From Herbaspirillum hiltneri N3 (GTDB lineage Bacteria > Pseudomonadota > Gammaproteobacteria > Burkholderiales > Burkholderiaceae_D): DNA of 64,000 nucleotides. The position numbers and the translations under genes were made by a program. The notes under the pieces are model-generated. The model ran no database searches and was not told the origin of the DNA. It was given only the letters and a program-made list of their open reading frames with translations. Where the stretch lies: positions 806,001-870,000 of the forward strand of contig NZ_CP011409.1 in assembly GCF_001267925.1 (NCBI RefSeq), written 5' to 3'. This document shows, in pieces, positions 20,693 through 24,695 of this stretch; position 1 is the first letter of the stretch; the number at the start of each line of letters is the position of its first letter.

Positions 20693-20839
20693 GTCGTCTC
20701 CTGATTATTTTTGTGAAGCAAAGACGATATCACCACCAGCCCCGGCCATCAATCGGGCAGGGCTGTTTTGCGGTTTGGATGAGATAATAGAAGATTGCCG
20801 ATGCGGCCAACATGAAGTCCAGATTGCTCCAGAACGCCT

Positions 20840-21919
20840 ATGCCTCAATTTGCTCCGCTCAAGAACGATACCTTCCTGCGCGCCTTGCTGCGCCAGCCGA
20901 CCGATTACACGCCGCTGTGGCTGATGCGCCAGGCCGGCCGCTACCTGCCCGAATACCGCGCCACGCGCGCGCGCGCCGGTTCGTTCCTGGGCCTGGCCAA
21001 GAATCCTGATTACGCCACTGAAGTCACGCTGCAGCCGCTCGAGCGTTATCCGCTGGACGCGGCGATCCTGTTTTCCGACATCCTGACCGTGCCCGATGCG
21101 ATGGGTCTGGGCCTGTTCTTCGCCGATGGCGAGGGGCCGAAGTTCGAGCGCCCGCTGCGCGATGAAAAGGCCGTGCTGGCGCTGCAGGCGCCGCAACTGG
21201 ACAGTCTTCAATACGTGTTCGACGCCGTCACCCAGATCCGTACCGAACTGGACGGCCGCGTGCCGCTGATCGGTTTCTCGGGCAGCCCGTGGACGTTGGC
21301 CTGCTATATGGTCGAAGGCGGCGGTTCCGACGATTTCCGCATCGTCAAGGCCATGCTGTACGACCGTCCGGACCTGATGCACCACATCCTCAGGACTAAC
21401 GCCGCCGCCGTCGCCGCTTACCTGAATGCGCAGATCGACGCCGGCGCCCAGGCCGTGATGATTTTCGACACCTGGGGTGGGGCGCTGGCTGACGGCGTGT
21501 ACCAGGCGTTTTCGCTGGACTACATGCGTGAAGTCATGCGCCAGCTCAAGCGCGACAAGGACGGCGTCAGGATCCCGGCGATCGTCTTCACCAAAGGCGG
21601 CGGATTGTGGCTCGAGCAGATCGCCGACATCGGCGCCGATGCCGTAGGGCTGGACTGGACCGTCAACCTGGCCGATGCGCGTCGCCGCGTCGGCGACAAG
21701 GTGGCGCTGCAGGGGAACCTCGATCCCAACGTGCTGTTTGCCGGACCGGCGCAGATCCAGGCCGAAGTGCGCAAGTTGCTGGAATCCTTCGGCAAGCCCG
21801 CCGCCGGCGCAGGTCACGTGTTCAACCTCGGCCACGGGATCTCCCAGTTCACCCCGCCGGAGTCTGTCACGACCCTGGTGGAGGCGGTGCATGGCATCAG
21901 CCGGGAACTGCGCGGCTGA
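20840..21919 (+). CDS. hemE: Uroporphyrinogen decarboxylase
   Basis: A 359-residue cytosolic enzyme that decarboxylates uroporphyrinogen III to coproporphyrinogen III in haem synthesis. [13 protein letters not shown] near residue 30 is the substrate-binding signature, and [13 protein letters not shown] and [13 protein letters not shown] are also conserved. It is full length. Divergent from pheC; the gap downstream contains the DnaA-box cluster. Confidence 0.98.
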
Positions 21920-22013
21920 TTCCGGCCGGGCGGAAAACGATAAGCCGCTGAAAACACAGTACATACTCACCAGCATGCGGCGCGATGCACATCGGGGCCG
22001 CGCGCATGCGCAG

Positions 22014-22598
22014 TTATGCACACGAACGGCGCTTTCCTTAGTGGGAATCATTCATATCCATATTTGTAAAGCGATGATTTTCGAATTTTTGCAAGTCATT
22101 GATTTTTAAAGAATTTGTTTCTTGCGCGGGATTTGAGCAAACTATCGAGACCCGCATGAAACGTGGGCTTCGGGGCTGTCAAGAGGGAGTTGCCCACAAA
22201 GTTATCCACAGGAATTGTGGATAGTTGAAAAAGCACTTATGAAACCGTGAGTTACACGCTTTTTTAACGTTTTACTTTAGAAACCGGCGCGGAATCCTAC
22301 TGCGCTGTCAGGATTCTCCCGACAAAATTTGCTTGACAGAAAGTAGTGCGAACGATCTCGCCGCGATACCTTTTCGGTGCAGAAAAGCAGACTTATGCAC
22401 AAAATCGCTCTTGTGCGCGGCAATATAAAAATTTAAAAATAAATTTCATAGGCGGCGGCATGTTTTGCAAGTCATTGATTTTTAAGGATTTAAATTTTGC
22501 TTTTGATTTGAGCAATTTATTGAAACCCGCATCCAGACTGGGAAAATCGCTGTCAAGCCCGGGTTATGCACAAAGTTATCCACAGGTTTTGTGGATAG
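22014..22598 (+). other. DnaA-box cluster, candidate replication origin or DnaA-titration site
   Basis: Boxes matching TTWTNCACA: TTATGCACA at 22014, 22393 and 22564; TTATCCACA at 22202 and 22576; and reverse CTATCCACA at 22216-22224 and 22590-22598. Each TTATCCACA faces a reverse box with a 5-bp gap. A weaker TTGCCCACA lies at 22190. AT-rich stretches (22070-22125, 22425-22450, 22485-22520) lie between. No gene is visible in 21920-22658. Confidence 0.7.
22091..22248 (+). repeat. Tandem repeat unit 1 with DnaA boxes
   Basis: Starts GCAAGTCATTGATTTTTAA and ends TTATGAAACCGT; pairs with 22467-22622. Confidence 0.8.
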
Positions 22599-22658: not shown

Positions 22659-24695
22659 GTGGAACAACGCATCCTTCAGATCGTTCTCGATACCCCGCTT
22701 GACAGGACCTTCGACTACCGTTGGCGCCGCCAGGGCGACGAGGCCCTGCCGCAAATCGGCCAACTGGCGATCGTGCCGTTCGGCCGTCGCGAGGTGGCGG
22801 GCCTGATCATCGGCCTGGCCGAACAGACCGAGGTGCCGGACGGCAAGCTCAAGGACGTGCTGGCGGTGCGCAGCCAGCTGGCGCCGCTGCCGCCGCAATG
22901 GCTGGCGCTGTGCGGTTTCGCCGCCGATTATTACCAGCGCCCGCTGGGTGAGGTGGCGTTGCCGGGTTTGCCGAAGAACTTGCGCACCCTGACCACGACC
23001 GCGCTCGACCGCGCGCTCAAGAAGCTGGCCAAGCTCGATGCCGGCCACGACGGCAACCCGGTCAACACGCCGCAGTTGAAGCCTGAACAACAAGAGGCCG
23101 TCGACGCCATCGCCGACGCCCGGGGGTTTGCGCCGCTGCTGCTGTACGGCGTGACCGGCAGCGGCAAGACCGAGGTCTACCTGCAGGCGGCGGCGCGCAT
23201 CCTGGCGCAGCACGAAGCAGCCGGCGAAGTCGCCCAGGTACTGGTGCTGGTGCCTGAAATCAACCTGACGCCGCAGCTCGAATCGAATATCCGCGCGCGC
23301 TTTCCGGGCGTGCACGTGGTCAGCCTGCACAGCGGCCTGGCCGAAGGCGAGCGTACGCTCAGCTGGCTGGCGGCGCACCAGGGCCAGGCGCGCATCGTGC
23401 TCGGCACGCGGCTGGCGATCCTGTCGTCGCTGCCGCATCTCAAGCTCATCGTGATCGACGAAGAGCACGATCCGTCCTACAAGCAGCAGGAAGGCCTGCG
23501 TTACTCGGCGCGCGACCTGGCGGTCTGGCGTGCGCACCAGCTGGCGATTCCGGTGGTGCTGGGTTCGGCCACGCCCTCGCTGGAAACCTGGCAGCACGCC
23601 CAGGCCGGCCGTTACCGCAAGCTGCAGCTGCGCGAGCGTGCGGTGCGCGACGCCGTGCTGCCCAAGGTCAAGATGATCGACATGGAGCGCGACCGGCCCA
23701 ACGACGGCCTGACCTCGACGCTGGTGGCGGCCCTCAAGCTGCGCCTGGAGCGCGGCGAGCAGTCGCTGCTGTTCCTCAACCGGCGCGGCTATGCACCGGT
23801 ACTCAATTGCGACGCCTGCGGCTGGATCAGCAACTGCATGCGCTGCACCTCGTTCATGGTGCTGCACAAGCCCGAGCGGCGCCTGCGCTGCCACCATTGC
23901 AGCCTGGAACTGTATATCCCCAAAGCCTGCCCGACCTGCGGCAACGTCGACCTGCAACCGCTGGGGCGCGGCACCCAGCGCGTGGAAGAAGGCCTGCAGG
24001 CGATGTTCCCGGAGGCGCGCATCTTGCGCATCGACGCCGATTCCACGCGTCTCAAGGGTTCGGCCCAAAATGCCTTCGACAGCGTGCACCGCGGCGAAGT
24101 CGATATCCTGATCGGCACGCAGATGGTCGCCAAGGGGCACGACTTCAAGCGCCTGACGCTGGTGGGGGTGATGAATCCCGACACCGCGCTGTTTTCGCAT
24201 GACTATCGCGCCAGCGAGCGTTTATTCGCGCAACTGATGCAGGTCGCGGGCCGCGCGGGCCGGGCCGGGCAGAAGGAGGGCGGCTCGCCCAGCGAAGTAC
24301 TGATTCAGAGCCGCTATCCGCATCATCCGCTGTACGGTGCGGTGGCTGCGCACGACTACGACGGCTTTGCCACCCAGTTGCTCGAAGAGCGCCAGCAAGC
24401 GGCATTGCCGCCGTTCCTCTACCAGGCGCTGCTGCGCGCCGAGGCGGCCGAACTCGACGTCGCACTGGCTTTCCTGCAGGATGCGGCGACCTGCCTGGAG
24501 CATCCCGGCATCACCATCAACGATCCCATCCCCATGACCATGACGCGCGTAGCCAACGTCGAACGCGCCCAGCTGTTGATCGAATGCCCGTCGCGGCCGG
24601 CCTTGCAGGCCTTCCTGCGCGACTGGATGGAAGTCTTGCGCCAGACGAAGACGCGCGCCAAATGGTCGCTGGAAGTCGATCCGGTCGATATCTGA
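22659..24695 (+). CDS. priA: Primosomal replication helicase PriA
   Basis: A 678-residue 3'-5' helicase that restarts stalled forks. Walker A GVTGSGKT at 164-171, DEEH at 267-270, and eight zinc-binding cysteines in four pairs at 384/387, 393/396, 411/414 and 424/427. The start is GTG; no ATG lies near that matches the family N-terminus (QRILQIVLDTPLDRTFDY). Confidence 0.97.
   Translation: MEQRILQIVLDTPLDRTFDYRWRRQGDEALPQIGQLAIVPFGRREVAGLIIGLAEQTEVPDGKLKDVLAVRSQLAPLPPQWLALCGFAADYYQRPLGEVALPGLPKNLRTLTTTALDRALKKLAKLDAGHDGNPVNTPQLKPEQQEAVDAIADARGFAPLLLYGVTGSGKTEVYLQAAARILAQHEAAGEVAQVLVLVPEINLTPQLESNIRARFPGVHVVSLHSGLAEGERTLSWLAAHQGQARIVLGTRLAILSSLPHLKLIVIDEEHDPSYKQQEGLRYSARDLAVWRAHQLAIPVVLGSATPSLETWQHAQAGRYRKLQLRERAVRDAVLPKVKMIDMERDRPNDGLTSTLVAALKLRLERGEQSLLFLNRRGYAPVLNCDACGWISNCMRCTSFMVLHKPERRLRCHHCSLELYIPKACPTCGNVDLQPLGRGTQRVEEGLQAMFPEARILRIDADSTRLKGSAQNAFDSVHRGEVDILIGTQMVAKGHDFKRLTLVGVMNPDTALFSHDYRASERLFAQLMQVAGRAGRAGQKEGGSPSEVLIQSRYPHHPLYGAVAAHDYDGFATQLLEERQQAALPPFLYQALLRAEAAELDVALAFLQDAATCLEHPGITINDPIPMTMTRVANVERAQLLIECPSRPALQAFLRDWMEVLRQTKTRAKWSLEVDPVDI

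Follow-up and report, generated by a model that had tools for sequence, protein, structure and literature searches.

A cluster of DnaA boxes between hemE and priA

The window analysed here is a 64-kb stretch of a Herbaspirillum chromosome (bases 806001-870000 of a single contig of 4,965,474 bp, the numbering of which begins at dnaA). Within it, the 739-bp gap between hemE and priA holds seven DnaA boxes, all located in 22014-22598 (chromosome positions 828,014-828,598): five exact matches to TTWTNCACA, every one of them on the plus strand, and two one-off boxes on the minus strand, both of which read CTATCCACA (Table 1). This count agrees with the first-pass annotation of the same DNA, as do two inverted box pairs with a 5-bp gap, AT-rich stretches in the cluster region (50-bp windows reach 72% AT), the position of priA on the far side of the cluster from hemE, with NCBIfam support for both genes, and the presence of the origin-type neighbour genes atpA, atpD, yidC and mnmE. 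Two open frames extend into the gap (21675-22109, plus strand, and 20705-22051, minus strand), and both overlap hemE.

Table 1. Genes, DnaA boxes and IHF sites at the hemE-priA locus (positions in the window)
Feature	Position	Strand	Sequence or support
hemE, upstream neighbour	20840..21919	+	NCBIfam TIGR01464, over cut-off
Module A, distal DnaA box	22014..22022	+	TTATGCACA; exact box
Module A, IHF consensus	22092..22104	-	AATCAATGACTTG; exact
Module A, core box III	22190..22198	+	TTGCCCACA; weak, two mismatches
Module A, core box II	22202..22210	+	TTATCCACA; exact box
Module A, core box I, inverted	22216..22224	-	CTATCCACA; one-off box
Module B, distal DnaA box	22393..22401	+	TTATGCACA; exact box
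Module B, IHF consensus	22468..22480	-	AATCAATGACTTG; exact
Module B, core box III	22564..22572	+	TTATGCACA; exact box
Module B, core box II	22576..22584	+	TTATCCACA; exact box
Module B, core box I, inverted	22590..22598	-	CTATCCACA; one-off box
priA, downstream neighbour	22659..24695	+	NCBIfam TIGR00595, over cut-off

The whole 64-kb window contains seven exact boxes, five of them inside the cluster; 100 shuffles of the window gave a mean of 2.4 exact boxes, and seven were reached by a single shuffle. Outside the cluster, no 585-bp stretch of the window has more than two of the boxes listed, even when one mismatch is allowed. Exact TTATNCACA is found at 33 sites chromosome-wide (5 in this cluster and 5 at 4,958,977-4,959,890) versus 41 for the backwards-read pattern, so that the motif is not enriched across the chromosome, and what distinguishes the cluster is its clustering and geometry, not motif frequency. 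The cluster repeats itself in tandem, in a register of 374-376 bp, and the exact IHF consensus, which occurs once per 48 kb in the sampled chromosome, is present only twice in the window, both times on the minus strand and within the cluster.

The cluster is very probably not oriC

The box cluster, AT-rich stretches and IHF sites in the gap are features that speak for a replication origin, and the first-pass annotation had put the cluster forward as a candidate oriC, invoking hemE, the neighbour of oriC in Caulobacter-type alphaproteobacteria. Cumulative GC skew, computed from a sample covering 28.5% of the chromosome, reaches its minimum at position 0, that is, at dnaA rather than at the cluster, and its maximum near 2.83 Mb. 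Mean skew is -0.0285 (s.e. 0.0095) at 4.70-4.96 Mb and +0.0146 (s.e. 0.0037) over 0-828 kb, which is positive like the stretch beyond (828-1400 kb, +0.0181, s.e. 0.0107), so that there is no sign change at the cluster. For a two-replichore fit, the sum of squares was lowest at 20-60 kb (0.032), similar at position 0 (0.034) and much higher at 820-840 kb (0.050).

A check for a box cluster near dnaA, suggested in the same annotation, yielded an oriC-like region about 5.6 kb upstream of that gene (4958914-4959904). The region is bipartite, with two AT-rich copies that carry DnaA boxes and TAG repeats and flank a 2Fe-2S ferredoxin gene. It contains two TAG triple repeats, which we take to be the DnaA-trio; none was found in the hemE-priA gap, where AT-rich stretches alone are present. 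Of 33 same-genus relatives, 32 have DNA that matches the oriC-like region, in some of them weakly, and the region lies close before dnaA in six single-contig relatives (G005, G015, G019, G020, G025 and G029, with G025 placed from a rounded genome length only). In these six relatives the hemE-priA site is located about 490-650 kb from the oriC-like region, on one side in five of them and on the other side in G005, and in the genome studied here the distance is ~835 kb (16.8% of the genome), or 828 kb from dnaA. Skew and the oriC-like region near dnaA, seen in relatives too, thus speak against the first-pass placement of oriC at hemE-priA; we conclude that the cluster is very probably not oriC and regard a role as an origin or second origin of replication as extremely improbable. 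The occurrence of hemE beside the element in beta loci, as beside the alphaproteobacterial oriC, may be a coincidence.

Two tandem modules with a DARS-like core and datA-like spacing

The repeat resolves into two modules, A and B, each consisting of a distal DnaA box, an IHF site and a core of three boxes, ordered III, II, I. The gaps between the core boxes measure 3 and 5 bp, and box I is inverted; in both modules, successive core boxes start at intervals of 12 and 14 bp. With the start of box III set to 0, the distal box is located at -176 in module A and -171 in module B, and the IHF site at -98 and -96, which is 78 and 75 bp on from the distal box, respectively. Box II lies at +12 and box I, which is inverted, at +26.

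The core of DARS (DnaA-reactivating sequences) is described as three DnaA boxes, with box I opposite to boxes II and III and with identical spacing in DARS1 and DARS2 (PMC5742627). By our measurement, E. coli DARS1 (bioD-uvrB gap) has boxes at 0, +12 and +26, the last inverted, and DARS2 (rppH-mutH gap) has the same arrangement. In DARS2, an IHF site with 1 mismatch lies at -87, in the same orientation as in the modules, another lies at -71 in the other orientation, and a consensus box is found at -185, also in the other orientation. The 3-bp separation given for IBS1-2 (PMC4245941) is the basis on which we read the -87/-71 pair as probably corresponding to these sites. In datA, with box 3 taken as 0, two features precede it, a box at -162 and, at -97, an exact IHF site; an inverted box follows at +12. 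By these coordinates, each module has a DARS core for its right half and a datA-like left half.

The modules thus share with DARS1 and DARS2 the three-box core, the gaps of 5 and 3 bp and the inverted box I, and with DARS2 also, at the level of sequence only, an IHF site that lies on the side of box III and is oriented alike. They differ from DARS2 in the presence of two tandem copies, in the IHF distance (96-98 bp from box III versus 87 bp), in the distal box and its orientation, in having no Fis consensus at a fixed place and in having priA as a neighbour. They agree with datA in how the distal box, IHF site and box are ordered and oriented, have a closely similar IHF distance (97 bp in datA versus 96 and 98 bp) and lie at a comparable distance from oriC. 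At +12, however, datA carries an inverted box where the modules have box II, the inverted box of the modules (box I) being at +26; the distal box of datA is closer (162 versus 171 and 176 bp), and the neighbours of datA are tRNA-Gly genes and queG. Furthermore, the essential boxes of datA all point in one direction, whereas in the modules the distal box and boxes III and II agree and box I is inverted.

Core spacing and conservation within the genus

When searched with up to 3 mismatches, the core pattern recovered the positive controls in the E. coli stretches searched (DARS1 with 2 mismatches and DARS2 with 3) and had a match in 56 of 61 genomes. The backwards-read pattern matched in none of the 61, and a gap-shift control, with gaps of 4/6 instead of 3/5, in only one, a drop which indicates that the 3/5 spacing of the core is selected. 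The window has two matches to the core pattern, compared with a mean of 0.00 in 100 shuffles. Chance clustering of boxes is ruled out by the window shuffles together with the gap-shift control.

Across the genome studied here, five cores were found in total, and an IHF site and distal box accompany only the two between hemE and priA. The other three (one at 1 mismatch, two at 3 mismatches) have neither an IHF site nor a distal box, so that a core-like match alone does not amount to a module. The core at 1 mismatch (1780218-1780252) is located between xseA and an exbB/tolQ-type gene; similar xseA-type cores occur in several relatives among the matches listed, and a core in G023 lies between the same two genes.

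The genus alignment comprised 56 modules, chosen by their core, from 29 genomes, namely, our own and 28 of the 33 same-genus relatives (G008, G011, G012, G019 and G025 are left out, and G006 and G014 contribute one module each). The distal box is exact in all 56 modules, 171-177 bp from box III, and the IHF site, at 96-98 bp, fits its consensus perfectly in 51 and with at most one mismatch in all 56. Mean column identity amounts to 0.99 for the distal box, 0.94 for the IHF site and 1.00, 0.93 and 0.86 for boxes II, I and III, and to 0.48 for the distal-IHF spacer, 0.69 for the IHF-core spacer and 0.61 for the 5-bp gap, where the core-box identities are partly set by the selection of modules and alignment gaps depress those of the spacers. 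Since the genomes are related, these conservation counts are not independent. The alignment also contains a GCTGTCAAG block kept just ahead of box III (22549-22563 of the window and its module A equivalent), which the consensus patterns used do not explain.

Distribution of the element and linkage to priA

Scanning a genome collection with an exact pattern that covers box II, box I and the end of box III returned at least 117 stretches, with titles mostly of beta- and gamma-proteobacteria. Only the last two bases of box III are part of this pattern; each of its other fixed positions matched the consensus in 71-93% of 122 cores among the matches listed. Considering the 114 cores with at least 200 bp upstream (9 cores with less than 200 bp were dropped), an IHF site with at most one mismatch is located at 95-100 bp in 76, exactly matching in 48, and a distal box is present in 58, again among the matches listed; in a shifted-position control, the IHF site was found in 14 of 880 cases and the distal box in 7 of 880. 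Six stretches with a poor box III, from Lentilactobacillus, Cohnella, Nocardiopsis and Thermosporothrix, probably represent something else and were kept in the counts.

Among the matches listed, priA lies downstream in the same orientation at 36 of 117 loci, which comprise 34 clustered loci, with priA as the nearest or second predicted frame, and the loci L220 and L241. The priA-linked loci listed include members of Oxalobacteraceae, Ralstonia, a Rhodocyclaceae MAG, Dyella and Cycloclasticus, and priA is the neighbour common to the beta and gamma members among the named loci of the matches listed. In E. coli, the gene upstream of priA is rpmE. A scaffold upstream of priA, scored by the presence of three of four features (0 of 196 control stretches), was detected within the order in 15 of 26 additional genomes, representing 26 genera, with box I missing in 6 of the 15, and in 8 of 23 other members of the class, with box I missing in 1 of the 8. 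A stricter count, demanding a core with at most 3 mismatches upstream of priA, gave 7 of the 26 order genomes. In one genome from another genus of the family (G034), four DARS-like cores stand in a row before priA, three of them with an exact IHF site at 97-98 bp, and a Nitrosomonas MAG locus (L233, 4896-5415) carries three DARS-like cores in tandem, 246 bp apart.

The recurrent position ahead of priA, in the same orientation, and the frequency of the scaffold in the order and in other class members are what would be expected if DnaA and IHF bound the priA promoter region and coupled expression of this gene to the cell cycle. However, the combination of IHF site and core also occurs away from priA, in 44 of 78 such cores among the matches listed. 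For instance, five Pasteurellaceae loci among these matches have the core beside uvrB, the same neighbour as that of E. coli DARS1, with an exact IHF site in all five (UvrB of one of the five was scanned and the remaining proteins were joined to it by BLAST), and a further eight listed loci lie beside xseA or an exbB/tolQ-type gene, with an IHF site in six. Moreover, promoter-like matches in the hemE-priA gap, as well as terminator matches, are at the level of shuffled sequence. We therefore consider control of priA transcription improbable as the main role of the locus, although the control of priA and that of DnaA are not mutually exclusive functions. In Gallionella/Sideroxydans-type loci among the matches listed, the core was likewise found beside the same xseA/exbB-tolQ-type genes.

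Partner proteins

The genome encodes DnaA, IHF alpha and IHF beta, with both IHF subunits scoring over the curated cut-offs, two HU-like proteins (best matched by HU models, below the cut-off) and a Fis-like protein (120.6 bits versus a cut-off of 122). A second, short DnaA-domain match belongs to a 237-aa frame (chromosome 1433092-1433262), which may be Hda, judging from its size. E. coli DARS2 needs Fis (sites FBS2-3). The Fis consensus was not found in the two window modules and had 4 scattered matches in the 56 genus modules, but the same scan gives just one site in E. coli DARS2, so that the scan of the modules says little.

A putative DARS-type element controlling DnaA

Taken together, we consider it likely that the locus is an IHF-assisted DARS-type DnaA-control element with datA-like geometry, present in two tandem copies. 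The first-pass annotation had offered a titration locus as the alternative to oriC; this proposal comes closer, the anatomy being consistent with a DnaA-control function and specifically with a DARS/datA architecture, though the locus may also act by plain titration. In each copy, the box III side of a DARS core carries an IHF site and, beyond it, a consensus box. IHF would bend the DNA that links this distal box to the core, and ADP-bound DnaA would assemble on both. Head-to-head contact at boxes I and II, described for E. coli DARS as releasing ADP (PMC5742627), may then promote the loss of ADP from DnaA, and the protein, having rebound ATP, could act at oriC, about 0.5-0.8 Mb away.

The main rival is a datA-like site, since datA is a closer fit than DARS2 in IHF distance, distal box and distance from oriC. 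At such a site, IHF-bound DNA would gather ATP-DnaA and promote ATP hydrolysis, or simply titrate DnaA, and so restrain initiation. The IHF distance of 96-98 bp is closer to that of datA (97 bp) than to that of DARS2 (87 bp), and the distal box is oriented like the datA box at 162 bp and unlike the DARS2 box at 185 bp; the distal box, at 171-177 bp in the genus, lies at 161-176 bp in other order members. The location relatively near oriC, at 9-17% of the genome from the oriC-like region, is likewise nearer to that of datA. Six of the 15 order members with the scaffold lack box I, and box III of module A is weak, which also tells against DARS. Conversely, the inverted box of datA is at +12, a position taken in the modules by box II, with box I, inverted, at +26; box I is kept within the genus at the exact DARS spacing, and the gap-shift control shows this spacing to be selected. 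Hence, we favour the DARS-type reading and regard the datA-like one as unlikely.

A more speculative view, which we put forward only tentatively, is that the priA-linked element combines datA and DARS2 and may stand near the ancestor of both, with inverted box I setting the DARS or datA mode. If so, the IHF-bent scaffold of distal box, IHF site and box III would be common to both modes, and the element would reactivate DnaA with box I present and inactivate or titrate DnaA once box I is lost. Lineages that lost box I would then have switched the sign of control through a single box, and the tandem copies of Herbaspirillum would raise the dose near the origin.

With respect to known systems, the DARS2 core is reported in PMC4245941 as conserved specifically in gamma-proteobacteria related to E. 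coli, for which the detailed architecture is also described (PMC4245941, PMC8682772), and a review gives its conservation as beta or gamma (PMC5742627); DARS-like sequences are stated, with reference to other work, to be conserved in many proteobacteria (PMC10380432). Further literature drawn on includes PMC4585315, PMC10950094 and PMC12371093. Given that DARS-like sequences have already been reported as widespread, the novelty of the DARS-type element described here is limited to the variant, that is, to the priA linkage, the datA-type IHF spacing with a distal box and the tandem copies; no priA-linked DARS was found in searches of an open-access library, as judged mostly by titles and the opening parts of abstracts. 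In B. subtilis, described as being without IHF, datA and DARS, loss of DnaA-box clusters outside oriC leads to early initiation (PMC13220808); the likeness to the cluster in the window, taken from the description rather than from sequences, consists in DnaA boxes located outside oriC.

DnaA recycling sites have so far been worked out in E. coli. The architecture ahead of priA, arranged in tandem and defined in sequence with a spacing control, supplies exact sites to alter in bacteria with a different oriC, and the 97-bp IHF spacing in common raises the testable question of whether a single element has datA and DARS2 as its variants.
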